DNA of 64,000 bases from Haloarcula rubra (GTDB lineage Archaea; Halobacteriota; Halobacteria; Halobacteriales; Haloarculaceae): the NCBI RefSeq assembly GCF_019599465.1, contig NZ_RKLR01000009.1, positions 62,001-126,000 on the forward strand, in the 5' to 3' direction. The notes under the pieces were generated by a model. It saw only the letters and a program-made list of their open reading frames with translations. It did no database searches and had not been told where the DNA came from. Made by a program: the position numbers and the translations under genes. Position 1 is the first letter of the stretch, and every line of letters begins with the position of its first letter. Shown piece after piece: positions 6,634 to 12,540 of this stretch.

Positions 6634-6842
6634 AATTGATTACCACCAGCTGACAGCGAGCCGAGCACAGCCACGGAGCCGCAAGGGCGACCTCGGCCGA
6701 AGTGTCATTACCGGTGATACAGATGCCTCGATATTAAACGCTGTTCGGTGACGAGTATACGAGTAGATACCCTTGGTCCGAATCTCCGCCTTTGAGCACC
6801 AGAGAGAACATATGCCACCCCTCAAAAATAGGGAGCACACGG

Positions 6843-7139
6843 ATGCACGATCTAACTGGGTTCCAGCGAGATATCTTGTACGTGATCGCCGGGCTCGAGG
6901 AACCACACGGGCTCGCAGTAAAGGCCGAACTCGACGACTACTACGAACAAGAGATCAATCATGGGCGGCTCTATCCAAACCTCGACGACCTCGTCGGCAA
7001 AGGCCTCCTGGAGAAAGGTGAACTCGACAAACGGACGAACGTGTACACGGTCACACAACGCGGAGTGCGGGAGATCGAGGCGCGACGTGAGTGGGAAAGC
7101 CAGTATTTAGAGGACGTGAACGCACCCACTACGTCGTAG
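6843..7139 (+). CDS. PadR-family transcriptional regulator
   Basis: A 98-residue winged-helix protein. FQRDILYVIAGLEEPHG, then NHGRLYPNLDDLVGKGLLEKG and a TVTQRG wing, match haloarchaeal PadR regulators. The start is placed at ATG 6843, where the PadR alignment begins; an in-frame ATG at 6792 would add 17 unrelated residues. It is divergent from the P-type ATPase gene across 209 nt, so it may control that pump or itself. Ligand unknown. Confidence 0.85.
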   Translation: MHDLTGFQRDILYVIAGLEEPHGLAVKAELDDYYEQEINHGRLYPNLDDLVGKGLLEKGELDKRTNVYTVTQRGVREIEARREWESQYLEDVNAPTTS

Positions 7140-7161
7140 AACCAGGCGAGTAGAACTCAAT

Positions 7162-7168
7162 ATAAAAG
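7162..7168 (+). promoter_or_regulatory. TATA-like box for the Doc/Fic-like gene
   Basis: TATAAAAG begins at 7161, about 45 nt before ATG 7208. With the usual archaeal spacing of about 26 nt the transcript would start near 7188 and carry a leader of about 20 nt. Seen by eye; transcription start not known. Confidence 0.45.
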
Positions 7169-7207
7169 CGGGACTGCTTTACCCACTTCTCACGAATACG
7201 CATTGAG

Positions 7208-8095
7208 ATGGCTCGGCTCGTCTTCTATCATCACCCACAGGCCGAGAATTTCTCACTCAAATATAGCTCGGCATCGGTAGCAGAGATCCGGTCTCAGCGA
7301 GAGCAATCCGACGAGTTGACAAAGCTCATCGGATACCCCTTCGAATCTCCGGTCTATGTGCTCTATGAAGGCGATTCAGAGATCGAATCAGCCCAAGATA
7401 TTGACTTCGATCAGGAATGGCTGAGCGACCGTATTCGTGACCTTCCTCGTGCTGGGCAAGTTGTCGCATTCCGATTAGTGGAGTTGCTCGAAGCAGCTGT
7501 CGATGTTCGAGAGGAGGATGAGTTTCGGCTCTACAAGGAGTTCGAACCGCAAAAAATCCAGCAGGCACTCGATCACGTGTCCTGGGGAGCCCCACTTCCG
7601 ACCGTCGCTGGAGAAGTGATGTCGAATTTGATTCTCCGACATTCCCTCCCGAATGCGAATCATCGAACTGGCATCGCTATGCTGCAGTTCTGTATTGAGA
7701 GTGTGGACTCGGATTTTGCGATGCCACGAACACACGTCGACGACGATACCTGGCGAGAGTGGGTTGACCCCTACATCATTGATTCCAAGCGGCTCATCAC
7801 GGTCCGCCGGAACAACCTCCGTTTCAAGCAACTCGAAGACCTGGATGTCGACCTCGTCGAACGGAAAGACGGGATCCAAATTCGATTAGCCGAGTTCGAG
7901 TTGGATATGCATTGGCGAGAAGCCCTTTCGCAGTACGCTGAGCAGCATGAATCCCACTGTACGGACTTTGCGCAGGCAGTTCTCGAACGAGCAGAACGGG
8001 ACGATCTGCTCGACCGTCAAGGACCAACGAAACAAGAGTTCATCACGTATCTGGAGGGCGGACTCGTCGAACGGGACTTCAGAGAAATGTTCTGA
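7208..8095 (+). CDS. Doc/Fic-like domain protein
   Basis: A 295-residue protein. Residues 145-153 read HSLPNANHR, followed by TGIA. This resembles the Fic/Doc active-site loop, especially the Doc form HxFxNANKR, with Leu for Phe and His for Lys. Fic proteins transfer AMP, and Doc transfers phosphate to EF-Tu, so this may be a nucleotide-dependent protein modifier or toxin. The flanking 140 residues on each side are not assigned. Its stop (8095) abuts the stop of a convergent 34-aa gene, and no conventional antitoxin with an (S/T)xxxE(G/N) motif was seen. GC is below the window average, consistent with an acquired island. Confidence 0.62.
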   Translation: MARLVFYHHPQAENFSLKYSSASVAEIRSQREQSDELTKLIGYPFESPVYVLYEGDSEIESAQDIDFDQEWLSDRIRDLPRAGQVVAFRLVELLEAAVDVREEDEFRLYKEFEPQKIQQALDHVSWGAPLPTVAGEVMSNLILRHSLPNANHRTGIAMLQFCIESVDSDFAMPRTHVDDDTWREWVDPYIIDSKRLITVRRNNLRFKQLEDLDVDLVERKDGIQIRLAEFELDMHWREALSQYAEQHESHCTDFAQAVLERAERDDLLDRQGPTKQEFITYLEGGLVERDFREMF

Positions 8096-8278: not shown

Positions 8279-8491
8279 CTACCGAATCCGAGAATATCGA
8301 TACCTGTCTTTGATTCGGCGATGGTGATACTTTCCGTGAGAGGATGCCGCCATCAGTCCTTGATAGATCTTCTTCGGGACGTTGTAGTACTGATAGACTC
8401 GGCGACCGTGGAATTCTATCTCGAGAGTGTTCGAACTCTGATCGTAGCCGACACTTTTCAGGTTACTCGACGAAACGGGTTTTCGGTTCAT
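8279..8491 (-). CDS. KTSC domain protein
   Basis: A 70-residue protein that is almost entirely a KTSC domain: SSNLKSVGYD, a strand NTLEIEFHGRRVYQYYNV with the central YxY, then IKDRYRYSRIR. The domain is named after the C terminus of some lysyl-tRNA synthetases and has been proposed to bind RNA; its real role is unknown. The ATG shares ATGA with the stop of the upstream JAB-E1 gene (8488-8491), so it is translationally coupled and is the third gene of the ubiquitin-like operon. Confidence 0.85.
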   Translation of the reverse strand: MNRKPVSSSNLKSVGYDQSSNTLEIEFHGRRVYQYYNVPKKIYQGLMAASSHGKYHHRRIKDRYRYSRIR

Positions 8492-10281
8492 AGCTGTGGG
8501 ATATAGCGGGCTACCGTACTCTTGATACGAGCGAGTAGGCTATGCTCATTGGACGGTTCATCACCTTCAGGTTCAGCCTTGTCCTTGGCTGGCTCTTTCT
8601 CGACGGCAGCATCGAGACCCAGTTCTGCGACACTCCCTGTCTCGACAGTCGACGGCGTTGTCCGATACAGTCCAGTCTTCGCTATTGGGACGCCACGATC
8701 GCCGGTAGCTGTGAACGCCCCATTACAGAACTGGCAGTCGGGAGCAGCCTCTGCGTCGCTCACAAGGCGGTCTGAGGTTGCGCTGTACGTGCCGGTTTGG
8801 AATCCGTGCCGGTCGGCGAGGAGTCCCGTGAGGAACCGGTGCAGCGCGAACGTCAACCGTTGTACCGGTTCCTGATTGATCGTGATCACCGATGGTTGTT
8901 CTCCGGCAACGAGGTCAAGTCCATACTCGAGATTGTCTTCGTCTTCGCCTTCGGCATCGATCCGATCTTCGTTAATCGCATCCAAGCAGTCCAGACACGC
9001 CCGGTTCGCGCCGGACACTTGGAAGCTGGTCGCGATGCTTCGGAGTCCAGCGTCGTCGTCAACGTCGATATCCGTGCCTGCGTTGAACAGTGGCCGAAGG
9101 TACTGCTGGGCGGCCTCCGACACGAATCGACGTGACGTGGCGGTATCGGTGCCAGTGACAATCACGTCCGCAGCGACGACCTGCTCCAGCGCTCCCGGAG
9201 CCTGAACTTCCTCGTAGATGCCGTGATAGTAGATCGACGGATCGATATCGGAGACAACGCGTCCCAGGACCTCCGCCTTGGGCGTCCCACATCCGTCGAT
9301 GGCCTCGGCCCACGCAGCTGGGACGACACCATCCTCGTCGGGCGTCCGCTCGGGATCACCAGCATCGGCTGGGCGTGCGCCGACGATTCGCGAGCGGTTG
9401 GATTCTTCCACGACGTCGGGATCAACGACCGTGATTTCGCCAACGCCGAGGTGAGCGAGCGTCTGGACGATCGGTGCCCCGAGTCCACCAGCACCGACTA
9501 CGGCCACGTGAGCGTCCCGTAGCCGAGTGTTACCGCCGGCTCCGTGGAGCAACGCCTGCCGGTCGCGCATCTCGTCCTCGCCGTTTGAAGCCGGAGGGAG
9601 TCGTGAATCCGTCGTCCGAATCCGCTCTAGTTCACGGTCGTGAATGACAACGAGTTCATCAATCGGCGACGCGGCGGCCGTGATCGGCTCATGCCTGATC
9701 GTCGGAACGTCAGAGAGCCACGCCCGGCCGGTCAGACCCCCTTGACCAAAGATGAGACTTCCATGCGGACCAGCAGTTCGACCGGTCAGCGACGCCATAT
9801 GGGCCGGTTCGTTCTCGTCGTCGGTGCCCGAGTAGCACGGCTGGCTCGAACGGGGATGGCTATGGCACATCAGGAGGGCCATATCGTCGAGATACCGATG
9901 GTCCGTTTCGGTCGCCCGCATCATCGACCGAATCGTCGTGTGATCGAATCGGACGATTCCGGTCGACTGATCGAGATATTCGTCCCGATCCAGCAGGTGG
10001 ACCTCACGAATGAGATACTCGAAGACCCGCTGCCCACGATGAGTGTACTCCTGTGTACCGGCAACGAGATAGGCGGCATGTTCTTTCGGACACTTCTGCT
10101 CTGGACGCACGAGGTGCTCGCGCAGCCGCTGGTAGTCGGCGCCTCGGATCCGAACCCGTATCCGGTCAGCGACCGGCCACTCGTGATCAGGGTCTTCTAG
10201 TACGGAGCGAAGCCAGTGAGATACTCGCGACTTGCTCCTCGTCGCTCGCTCTCGGCTGCCGTCAGTCTCATGTCCCTGCAT
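8488..10281 (-). CDS. JAB (JAMM) - E1/ThiF fusion protein
   Basis: A 597-residue fusion. Residues about 40-190 form a JAB/MPN metalloprotease: probable Glu E67 in KEHAAYLVAG, then H140-S-H142-P with S151 and D154 (one residue more than the usual spacing between the second His and Ser). Residues about 250-520 form a ThiF/E1 domain: nucleotide loop VVGAGGLGAP (263-268), VVDPDVVEESNRSR, and two CxxC pairs (C429/C432, C516/C519) that probably hold structural zinc. E1 enzymes adenylate the C terminus of a ubiquitin-like protein; JAB cuts it off again. It lies 43 nt downstream of the Ubl/E2-like gene and overlaps the KTSC gene. The C-terminal 60 residues are low complexity. Confidence 0.88.
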   Translation of the reverse strand: MQGHETDGSRERATRSKSRVSHWLRSVLEDPDHEWPVADRIRVRIRGADYQRLREHLVRPEQKCPKEHAAYLVAGTQEYTHRGQRVFEYLIREVHLLDRDEYLDQSTGIVRFDHTTIRSMMRATETDHRYLDDMALLMCHSHPRSSQPCYSGTDDENEPAHMASLTGRTAGPHGSLIFGQGGLTGRAWLSDVPTIRHEPITAAASPIDELVVIHDRELERIRTTDSRLPPASNGEDEMRDRQALLHGAGGNTRLRDAHVAVVGAGGLGAPIVQTLAHLGVGEITVVDPDVVEESNRSRIVGARPADAGDPERTPDEDGVVPAAWAEAIDGCGTPKAEVLGRVVSDIDPSIYYHGIYEEVQAPGALEQVVAADVIVTGTDTATSRRFVSEAAQQYLRPLFNAGTDIDVDDDAGLRSIATSFQVSGANRACLDCLDAINEDRIDAEGEDEDNLEYGLDLVAGEQPSVITINQEPVQRLTFALHRFLTGLLADRHGFQTGTYSATSDRLVSDAEAAPDCQFCNGAFTATGDRGVPIAKTGLYRTTPSTVETGSVAELGLDAAVEKEPAKDKAEPEGDEPSNEHSLLARIKSTVARYIPQL

Positions 10282-10324
10282 AGATGTAATGTGGGTGGAT
10301 TAATCGCCAGCGGGAGGGGTCGCG

Positions 10325-11317
10325 TCAGTCACCCTGTCGGAGTCGTCCGTTCGCGACGGTCTCCAGATACCACTCGAGATCGGTCTCGTAGGGTTCCCAC
10401 TCGATGCCGTCCAGTTTGTTGATGTGCCAGGAAAGAGCCAACCAGCCCCGGACTTGGTCGTCGCGAGATTTCCGAAGCTCGCCGCCTCCTTCAAGCCGGA
10501 GATCCTCGTCGACGTAGACCCAGTCCGGAGCCTTCTGGGGGTAGTTCTCGTGGACGCGGATCATCACGTCTGTCGTGTCCGCATTGTAGGCATCCGACGG
10601 GATCTGGTAGTCCCGAACGGTGACGTGGACGAACTGCGCCTCGGCCTCGGTATCGACATCGACCTCGTGGTTTTCTCGAAGGGCTTCGATGTCCGCTGCG
10701 AGCACGTCGTCGAGCTGGGTGCTCCCGTAGGCAGTGTCAACGGGGATTGCGTCGAAGACGTTCTCTTCGGCGAGGTTGATGTCGCTGTCTTTGGGGACTC
10801 GATCGTCCTCGTCTGGAGGGTAGAGGACGTACTGGTTGGGATCGTACTCGAACGTGCGCAGCAGTTCGATCGGCTCGATGTACTGCTGGTCGAGTACTTT
10901 CGTTTCCCCACTGACGGTCACCTCGTAGCCGTCAATCTCCTCGTCGTCCTCATCATCATCACCTTCATCAACATCTTCGAGCGCCTCATCAAGGCCGTCC
11001 TCGACTTCTTCGATGGCCTCTTCGAGTGCTTCGAGTTCCTCAGCGTAGCTAACATCGAACCCAGCCGCGTCCTGGAGGGTGTCGATGTCGTCTTGTGCTG
11101 ACTGAATGTAGTCGGCCGCCCGATTGAGCGCGTCGTAGCGGGATCGATCCTCGTCGGTGTCTTGCCCCTCGTCGATGGCGTCCTCTGCGGCTTCGAGTGC
11201 GGCACGGAGGTCGTCGGCCGTCTCTTCGTCGAGAGACTCGAGCTGAGCGTTCAGTCCTCGGTAGCGGTCTTGGGCATGCTGGGTTGCTTCCTCGAGATCA
11301 GTTGGTTGCATGCACAT
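10325..11317 (-). CDS. coiled coil - ubiquitin-like - E2-like (Prok-E2 family E) protein
   Basis: A 330-residue acidic protein. Residues about 5-118 are helical coiled coil, then an Asp/Glu linker. Residues about 130-194 match the multiubiquitin-type beta-grasp domain: YEVTVSG, YIEPIELLRTF, DPNQYVLY, INLAEENVFDAIP. Residues about 205-326 look like the E2-like family E: a long strand region, VHENYPQKAPDWVYV, SWHIN, then ETDLEWYLETV. The only Cys is residue 2, and it is lost if the second ATG (11311) is the start, so the E2-like domain cannot form a thioester. No terminal Gly-Gly is present. It is the first gene of the operon with JAB-E1 and KTSC. Family assignment is by eye. Confidence 0.78.
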   Translation of the reverse strand: MCMQPTDLEEATQHAQDRYRGLNAQLESLDEETADDLRAALEAAEDAIDEGQDTDEDRSRYDALNRAADYIQSAQDDIDTLQDAAGFDVSYAEELEALEEAIEEVEDGLDEALEDVDEGDDDEDDEEIDGYEVTVSGETKVLDQQYIEPIELLRTFEYDPNQYVLYPPDEDDRVPKDSDINLAEENVFDAIPVDTAYGSTQLDDVLAADIEALRENHEVDVDTEAEAQFVHVTVRDYQIPSDAYNADTTDVMIRVHENYPQKAPDWVYVDEDLRLEGGGELRKSRDDQVRGWLALSWHINKLDGIEWEPYETDLEWYLETVANGRLRQGD

Positions 11318-11429
11318 TCGCCTAACAGCGTCATCCCCTTAAGCACCACGCGGTCTCTAACATCAGTAGCGGCATTAAGCACACAATCCGCACCAAACGC
11401 ATAAACCACAGAATCACCAACAGCGATAC
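11318..11429. promoter_or_regulatory. divergent promoter region, Ubl operon and CARF-like regulator
   Basis: This 112-nt gap separates two genes that face away from each other. ATAAAC at 11401-11406 is about 26 nt before the regulator's ATG at 11430 (leaderless spacing). On the minus strand CTTAAG near 11338-11343 is about 27 nt before the second ATG (11311) of the Ubl/E2-like gene. The arrangement would let the CARF-like protein control both directions. Confidence 0.5.
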
Positions 11430-12197
11430 ATGCGCCCCAGTGAACGAGTTCATATCGCGCCGCTCGGGTTCGAGCGCGATCGTGTCGTCGAAGCCGCGAA
11501 GCAATTGAAAGCTGATCGATTAATCCTACTTGAATGGGGTGAGGGGGAACGGCCGCCATTTGTCGAGGAGCTGTATGAGGATATCGAGGCAGCTGGGATT
11601 GACCGAGAGATCCGATCCTGCAACATTTTCGATCTGTATGAGGTTGTCCGGGTGACGGCACGAGAAATCCAACAGCACGCAGACGATGACGTGTTCGTGA
11701 ACATTGCAACCGGGAGTAAAATATCCGCAATCGGCGGGATGATCGCGTGTATGGTAACCGACGCTGTGCCGTATTACGTTGAGCCAGAACGATATGGTGA
11801 AAAAGACGCTCAACGGGTCAAACCGGTTTCCCACGGGGTGAAGAACATCAAGGAACTGCCGGCGTACCCAATAGATGCCCCCGAGACACAGCTCATCTAC
11901 GTGATGGAGTACATTTACCGAAATGGTCCGGTCACGAAGAAAGAGCTAATCGAATTCGGCCAAGGGAACGGTAAACCAATTCAAGCAGGAACACCACCGG
12001 AGGGATTGCCCTTCATTACGGACCATGAGGCTGATTCGGACCGAGCCCGCTACCGATTACTCGAAACGCATATACTCGAACCGCTAAACGAGAAGGGTTT
12101 CATCGAAACAAAGAAGATTGGGCGACGGACGGACGTGGATCTTACTGAGGAAGGGGAAAATACACTCTCTGCGTTTAGACACCTCATCGAAACGTGA
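11430..12197 (+). CDS. CARF-like / winged-helix regulator (HFX_2341 type)
   Basis: A 255-residue protein. The N-terminal Rossmann-like domain contains VHIAPLGFERDRVVEA, LILLEWG and the ligand-loop motif NIATGSKISAIGG (91-103), as in CARF-type nucleotide sensors. The C-terminal 100 residues form a winged helix (VTKKELIEFG, then LEPLNEKGFIETKK and a TEEGE wing). Haloarchaeal genomes encode many such HFX_2341-family regulators. It is divergent from the ubiquitin-like operon across 112 nt, which suggests that it regulates it in response to a nucleotide or similar ligand; that is inference. Confidence 0.8.
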   Translation: MRPSERVHIAPLGFERDRVVEAAKQLKADRLILLEWGEGERPPFVEELYEDIEAAGIDREIRSCNIFDLYEVVRVTAREIQQHADDDVFVNIATGSKISAIGGMIACMVTDAVPYYVEPERYGEKDAQRVKPVSHGVKNIKELPAYPIDAPETQLIYVMEYIYRNGPVTKKELIEFGQGNGKPIQAGTPPEGLPFITDHEADSDRARYRLLETHILEPLNEKGFIETKKIGRRTDVDLTEEGENTLSAFRHLIET

Positions 12198-12206
12198 TTA
12201 GTATCG

Positions 12207-12398
12207 TTAGCGGTCGGACGAGTCGGCCTCTTCGAGAGCTTCTGTAGCAACGTCTCCCAACTCCCCAGTCTCGATATGTGAATACCGGTCATGGACCATC
12301 TCCTCAGAGTTGTTGAGATAGCGGGCTGCAACGGGCTCCCCGAACGCCTGCACGAGAGTGTGCTCTGCCCGACCACGAGGGTGGGCAGCCCCAAGATC
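12207..12398 (-). pseudogene. remnant of a tyrosine recombinase C terminus
   Basis: This reading frame ends in AHPRGRAEHTLVQAF, then ARYLNNSEEMVHDRYSHIE, and looks like the C-terminal catalytic part of a haloarchaeal phage-type integrase: His/Arg region, recognition helix and Tyr nucleophile in DRYSH. Only about 63 residues are present. Upstream, the frame runs antisense to nothing similar and is replaced by the YHS gene. It marks a former integration event at this side of the 7-12 kb accessory island. Confidence 0.5.
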
Positions 12399-12540
12399 AC
12401 TCGGTATATACCGCCGGCTGGACCTGAAATTGCTGTCGACATTCGTCGCTACAGAAATAGTACGTCTTCCCGCCGTACTGAACCGTTGCGGCGGCTTCGC
12501 CAGACAGGAGTTCCATTCCACAGACCGGATCGGTAGTCAT
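12397..12540 (-). CDS. 47-aa YHS domain protein
   Basis: A 47-residue ORF reading MTTDPVCGMELLSGEAA and then GGKTYYFCSDECRQQF. This is a complete YHS (TRASH-like) motif with the usual DPVCGM, YYFCS and C-x3-F features. YHS domains bind soft metals such as copper. It is a stand-alone domain here, with its stop at the edge of the integrase remnant. The closest relatives in the window are the YHS inserts of the permeases at 36712 and 49397. Confidence 0.8.
   Translation of the reverse strand: MTTDPVCGMELLSGEAAATVQYGGKTYYFCSDECRQQFQVQPAVYTE

Follow-up and report, generated by a model that had tools for sequence, protein, structure and literature searches.

A mobile haloarchaeal gene cassette best read as a divergent Bub operon with a cysteine-less E2 domain

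A cassette of four genes in a 64,000-nt window of DNA from the haloarchaeon Haloarcula rubra is, judged from its sequence, most plausibly a diverged haloarchaeal operon of the Bub ('bacterial ubiquitination-like') type, in which BubA is fused to BubB and BubC to BubD. Bub is a family of putative immune pathways represented by hundreds of operons in diverse bacteria (PMC13373217). A probability of roughly 0.6 is given to the reading that the cassette is a plasmid-borne haloarchaeal variant of this pathway of ubiquitin-like conjugation; it is based on the gene set, the fusions, the JAMM and adenylation residues, the missing E2 cysteine, the tyrosine-glycine (YG) end of the ubiquitin-like domain (Ubl), selection and mobility. 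Read in this way, the cassette is a real, selected and mobile operon of the Bub type.

The four open reading frames were re-read in the window, and an original prediction made for this DNA was borne out in its layout: the operon lies on the minus strand with a divergent CARF gene, the KTSC and JAB-E1 genes overlap by 4 nt (ATGA), a 43-nt gap separates the latter from the coiled-coil/Ubl/E2 gene, and the 112-nt divergent promoter region and the neighbouring integrase remnant are present. Its assignments of Ubl, E2, E1, JAB, KTSC and CARF also hold in view of Pfam matches, invariant residues and profile-profile comparison.

8279..8491, minus strand: KTSC-domain protein, 70 amino acids (Pfam 2.9e-26; PDB 7x8c 1.4e-20), end of the shared cassette
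8488..10281, minus strand: BubC-BubD fusion (BubCD), JAB metalloprotease and ThiF/E1, 597 amino acids
10325..11317, minus strand: BubA-BubB fusion (BubAB), coiled coil, Ubl and cysteine-less E2, 330 amino acids, 328 from the conserved start
11318..11429, no strand: shared divergent promoter region, 112 nt
11430..12197, plus strand: CARF-winged-helix regulator of the HFX_2341/DUF6293 family, 255 amino acids, divergent from the operon
12207..12521, minus strand: C-terminal integrase remnant; a full-length SAM-like integrase lies at the equivalent place in loci L003, L004, L020 and L022

The same four-gene order, sought in other haloarchaeal DNA, was found on five other plasmids or contigs. Copies of the 4.1-kb block 8279-12347, which comprises the cassette, were found in Haloarcula SYNS111, Halorubrum CBA1229, Halosimplex and Natrinema gari (92.5-95% DNA identity) and, as part of a longer match, in Halorarius litoreus. 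The cassette sits beside an integrase on unrelated haloarchaeal plasmids; the full integrase is found at the block edge in four copies, and the window and H. litoreus retain the remnant only. The shared block stops at the KTSC gene in L003, L020 and L022, and no terminal or att-type repeats were found around the cassette, the flanks sharing no 11-nt match. Across the plasmid copies, the ratio of nonsynonymous to synonymous substitution rates (dN/dS) is 0.04-0.35 for all four genes; this indicates purifying selection, and the reading of the window copy as a pseudogene was rejected. Searches of viral contigs found nothing related to BubAB or its E2, and phage records gave two weak MoeB matches only.

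BubCD is a single chain of JAB and E1 in which both sets of active-site residues are intact.

9820..9864, minus strand: JAMM motif H140-x-H142...S151-x2-D154, invariant in 16 sequences
9388..9495, minus strand: E1 nucleotide-binding/adenylation segment with G263/G266/G268, D287, D289, N295 and R298; K335 and D379 lie further on
8725..8997, minus strand: two CxxC pairs, C429/C432 and C516/C519, putative zinc site

ThiF is matched in Pfam at 5e-29, and the best prokaryotic match of solved structure is Citrobacter BubCD (PDB 9ea4, 3.5e-11), in which the E1 half is matched and the order of JAB and E1 is identical. In the 16 aligned JAB-E1 proteins, the JAMM residues H140, H142, S151 and D154 are invariant, as are the adenylation residues R241, G263, G266, G268, D287, D289, N295, R298, K335, D379 and R384. 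The only cysteines invariant in the four-member window clade are C429, C432 and C516, and the CxxC pairs are a probable zinc site. RefSeq places the start of some BubCD homologues at later codons.

BubAB consists of three parts.

10964..11302, minus strand: acidic N-terminal coiled coil, about residues 6-118, with weak SMC/Rad50-like coiled-coil matches
10724..10933, minus strand: multiubiquitin-like Ubl of the beta-grasp type, residues 129-198, ending ...AYG; the Gly198 codon is at 10724-10726
10340..10705, minus strand: E2/UBC-like domain, Prok-E2_E, residues 205-326, no cysteine
10424..10432, minus strand: S-x-H motif of the E2, S296-W-H298 (residues 296-298), S and H invariant

The Ubl has no Pfam match of its own; however, profile-profile comparison with hhalign matches it to bacterial multiubiquitin at 90.7% (E 1.3e-6), and the haloarchaeal E2 to bacterial Prok-E2_E at 98.4% (E 5e-15), whereas the crossed controls (Ubl against E2 and E2 against Ubl) gave 0.1-0.3%. 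Pfam recognizes Prok-E2_E at residues 209-288 (6.9e-10, 39.2 bits against a cut-off of 25), and the serine and histidine of the S-x-H motif are invariant in both the haloarchaeal and the bacterial E2_E alignments. Like a BubA-type Ubl, the domain ends in glycine: the YG is invariant across the fused forms of the window clade and aligns with bacterial Ubl ends such as ...TEG. In the split relative G371, a coiled-coil Ubl is encoded as a separate gene ending in YGREDEQ and followed by a separate E2 gene; the position of this YG near a free C-terminus, together with the conserved Gly198, suggests that JAB cuts the fusion after Gly198, which would be both the cleavage site and the conjugation end, and thereby releases Ubl and E2. 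The coiled coil, which also occurs in the separate Ubl gene of G371, L032, is a probable oligomerisation segment. Several other copies lack the first ATG and start at MQP, which corresponds to the second ATG of the window; the true start of BubAB is therefore probably 11311 and not 11317. The sole cysteine of BubAB, residue 2, lies upstream of this start, and the E2 domain is cysteine-free in every member of the window clade. From the conserved start on, BubAB contains no cysteine, so that this E2 cannot take part in a thioester relay. Neither the missing cysteine nor the kinship with Bub figured in the original prediction.

That prediction had linked the genes to the bacterial operons described by Iyer, Burroughs and Aravind, and this link is supported. 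A Ubl-E2 fusion from Pontibacter carries both Multi_ubiq (2.4e-9) and Prok-E2_E (2.2e-30) and matches Citrobacter BubB at 7e-29, and bacterial multiubiquitin Ubls reach BubA. The condensation into two polypeptides, which had been regarded as special, did not stand: JAB and E1 are fused in the bacterial relatives examined, Pontibacter also fuses Ubl to E2, and fusions of JAB to E1 and of polyubiquitin to E2, along with an E2-like domain that is inactive, have already been reported from bacterial operons (PMC11354881), so that the two fusions alone are not new. As far as the sequences tell, the cassette is set apart by a coiled coil N-terminal to the Ubl, a KTSC gene in third place, the CARF-type regulator and the archaeal host.

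Relatives were searched with the JAB-E1 alignment in 391 haloarchaeal species, counting matches of at least 280 bits. There are 33 near-full-length JAB-E1 places in 31 of the 391 genomes (about 8% of species); the remaining matches reach at most 125 bits and cover the E1 part alone. Ubl and E2 genes lie directly upstream of JAB-E1 in most loci read, and the Prok-E2_E type is rare, with matches in 8/391 genomes. A maximum-likelihood tree contains three haloarchaeal JAB-E1 clades, each supported at 100/100, with no firm order relative to bacteria. The clade of the window also includes H. salinarum, G230 and G371; an 11-row clade has mostly cysteine-less E2s and often a coiled-coil Ubl; and a 9-row clade is marked by Ubls with an FG end, usually followed by a short tail, and by E2s that often have a W/Y-C cysteine. 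Operons of this FG-ending clade (L083 2340-5945, L092 46-3378, L103, L108, L109 and L037, of genomes G247, G040, G365, G296, G143 and G336) encode a Ubl with a tail of 0-5 residues, an E2 that often has its cysteine before W-x-P, and JAB-E1; some of them add a small membrane protein, and in two genomes one Ubl-E2 pair directly follows another. By their sequences, they look like cascades with cysteine-containing E2s in haloarchaea. Related AAA+ ATPase genes, which are possible partners or regulators, are divergent from the Ubl operon of G320 (L080 6829-7968) or near the JAB-E1 gene of G290 (L081 1523-2689).

The regulator belongs to the HFX_2341/DUF6293 family, since both domains exceed their Pfam cut-offs (HFX_2341_N, PF19810, 5e-38, 130.6 against 30 bits; DUF6293_C, PF22665, 2e-27, 96.3 against 27 bits); it also matches CARF3 of PADLOC (1.5e-90). 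HFX_2341 itself, a repressor from haloarchaea, reduces the expression of cas genes and acts genome-wide (PMC11434293). The promoter region has a mean column identity of 94% in six copies, with putative TATA-like elements just upstream of the BubAB start (CTTAAG) and of the CARF start (CATAAA). The direct repeat TTAAGCAC was considered as an operator; it is found once in the window, but its second unit is not conserved in the other copies, and the candidate was rejected. It is unlikely that the regulator travels with the mobile unit as a passenger, controlling the integrase or unrelated genes and leaving the Ubl operon alone. The genome-wide action of HFX_2341 would fit such a role, as would the absence of a CARF gene beside the G230 and G371 operons and its convergent arrangement with the integrase in four copies; however, the shared promoter region is kept in six copies, the CARF gene is the most constrained of the four (dN/dS 0.04-0.13), and the G230 operon is also faced by a divergent gene of the helix-turn-helix type. 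The original prediction had treated CARF and KTSC as partners of the system. As general partners they did not stand up, because only the recent cassette, at 93-100%, has both.

The cleavage, the transfer chemistry, the targets, the ligand and the biological role are what we infer when the cassette is read as a Bub variant. In this scheme, the coiled coil would gather BubAB chains, and the JAB half of BubCD would cut them after Gly198, giving a free Ubl C-terminus and the E2 domain in equal amounts. The E1 half would then adenylate Gly198. Because the E2 has no catalytic cysteine and the E1 conserves none outside the zinc-like CxxC pairs, the Ubl would reach a target amine either from the adenylate or by way of an intermediate that involves no cysteine, while the S-x-H domain of the E2 would position the target. 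JAB may also take the tag off again. The CARF-winged-helix protein would repress the overlapping divergent promoters until a nucleotide-type stress ligand releases them.

An E1 without conserved non-zinc cysteines, like MoeB and ThiF, and a cysteine-free E2 would also suit a system for Ubl adenylation and sulfur transfer, or for small-molecule modification, of the ThiS/MoaD/UbaA kind, in which JAB trims the carrier, the UBC-like domain is a scaffold and no protein is tagged. ThiF and UbaA are indeed the top NCBIfam matches of the E1, but their scores of 77.6 and 65 are far under the equivalog cut-offs of 275 and 450; in addition, no thiolation or biosynthesis gene adjoins any copy, an E2-type domain accompanies JAB-E1 in most loci read, and BubCD is the nearest solved prokaryotic kin. 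This explanation is therefore improbable. Even less probable is a structural or regulatory complex, in which JAB processing frees an oligomeric Ubl that binds its targets non-covalently and the E2 is a pseudo-enzyme: while the N-terminal coiled coil, the absent cysteine and the description of the E2-like domain of bacterial operons as inactive (PMC11354881) are in its favor, the C-terminal glycine of the Ubl, the adenylation residues and the S-x-H motif are all conserved in genes under purifying selection, and such catalytic features would be superfluous for pure scaffolding.

Several points weigh against the Bub reading. Used alone, the haloarchaeal E2 profile matches BubB at no better than E 0.8, so that membership in Bub rests on the chain of bacterial intermediates, and the Prok-JAB match in JAB-E1 is only 0.0029, below the Pfam cut-off. 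AlphaFold2 returned predicted local distance difference test (pLDDT) scores of 29.9 for the Ubl-E2 part and 28.4 for JAB-E1, too low for a usable fold model, from an input of only three near-identical sequences. In Haloarcula SYNS111 the E2 of BubAB is frameshifted (L003 6970-7953) and the Ubl is intact. CARF and KTSC are missing from the diverged relatives, and neither Cas10 nor an SMODS cyclase, which could supply a CARF ligand, was found in a search of the genome. Formation of Ubl conjugates is so far a proposal, and for Bub itself protection against phage is still to be demonstrated (PMC13373217).

The original prediction had placed the cassette in an accessory defence island that included a Doc-like gene, which did not hold. 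The cassette lies inside a copper/heavy-metal region, surrounded by genes for P-type ATPases and other metal functions rather than by known defence genes. A P-type ATPase-PadR-Doc block, extending to about 8240, occurs without the cassette on plasmids of Haloarcula marismortui, Halobaculum and others, where copper ATPase genes adjoin. Doc is thus ruled out as a partner of the system and belongs to the metal region; the setting, as read from the sequence, is one of metal resistance and not a defence island. The PadR regulator and the Doc/Fic-like protein with its LPNANHRTG motif (6792-8095), which many plasmids of haloarchaea conserve next to a P-type ATPase for heavy metals, are possibly a stress-linked toxin or AMPylator in their own right. 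In L003 (10327-12746), L020 (9071-11799) and L022 (9058-11921), a CoiA-like gene and a second zinc-finger-like gene replace Doc between KTSC and PadR, and this interval is an exchange slot adjoining the cassette. A KTSC domain also forms the C-terminal end of a HerA-family protein whose structure has been solved (PDB 8wiv, matched by the 8279-8491 product), a hint that the two proteins share a small module that acts as an adaptor or binds nucleic acids.

Tagging by SAMP in archaea has been described as E2-free, and archaeal E2s have been credited to Caldiarchaeum and Asgard (PMC11354881). It is tempting to speculate, with the odds somewhat against the idea as a whole, that haloarchaea, in which E2s are usually thought to be absent, hold their own radiation of E1-E2-Ubl-JAB operons, with three or more well-supported clades spread over about 8% of the sampled species, and that in the window clade Ubl and a cysteine-free E2 form one JAB-processed polyprotein with thioester-free transfer and a CARF nucleotide sensor in place of a DNA-damage regulator. 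The wider spread of E2-containing Ubl operons is a more interesting outcome than a single cassette. If the idea is true, haloarchaea, which include genetically tractable members, would offer an archaeal test bed for ubiquitin-type cascades without cysteine relays and for the function of Bub, and the CARF regulator would be the first link, in the literature surveyed, between a nucleotide signal and a pathway of this kind.

Among known systems, the HFX_2341 and Csa3 regulators share the CARF-type N-terminal domain and the winged helix with the regulator of the window, which differs by adjoining a Ubl operon and scores 31.8 for Csa3, below the cut-off of 60.2. Bil (BilABCD) and type II CBASS (Cap2/Cap3) have Ubl-type conjugation logic with JAB in common with the cassette; however, the E2 of Bil has a catalytic cysteine (PMC11354881), whereas the window E2 is cysteine-free, and CBASS needs a cyclase, for which the genome gave no SMODS match (other CD-NTase models were not searched). 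The SAMP/UbaA/HvJAMM system likewise comprises a Ubl, a ThiF/MoeB-type E1 and a JAMM protease, but the JAMM protein is separate, conjugation needs no E2 (PMC11354881), and the window E1 scores 65 against the UbaA cut-off of 450 bits. The multiubiquitin/E2_E/JAB-ThiF/DUF6527 operons of bacterial plasmids (Pontibacter L006, Synechocystis pSYSX L043) have the same gene order, and the former shares the Ubl-E2 fusion; they lack the acidic coiled coil, KTSC and CARF, and their third gene is DUF6527. Many Bub operons carry an adjacent promoter-proximal regulator, CapW, CapH+CapP or CapK+CapS, which is DNA-damage-responsive (PMC13373217); the HFX_2341/DUF6293 protein is none of these, but since they accompany only part of the published operons (PMC13373217), they are not a defining feature. 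Sequence similarity to Bub itself is only distant, and the haloarchaeal side differs by the Ubl-E2 fusion with the acidic coiled coil in front, the archaeal host, KTSC in place of DUF6527 and the CARF-type regulator. With Citrobacter BubA, BubB and BubCD (PDB 9ea4, 9eav, 9ea8) it shares the JAB-E1 fusion, an E2 of the Prok-E2_E type, a Ubl of the multiubiquitin family and an operon with an adjacent regulator.

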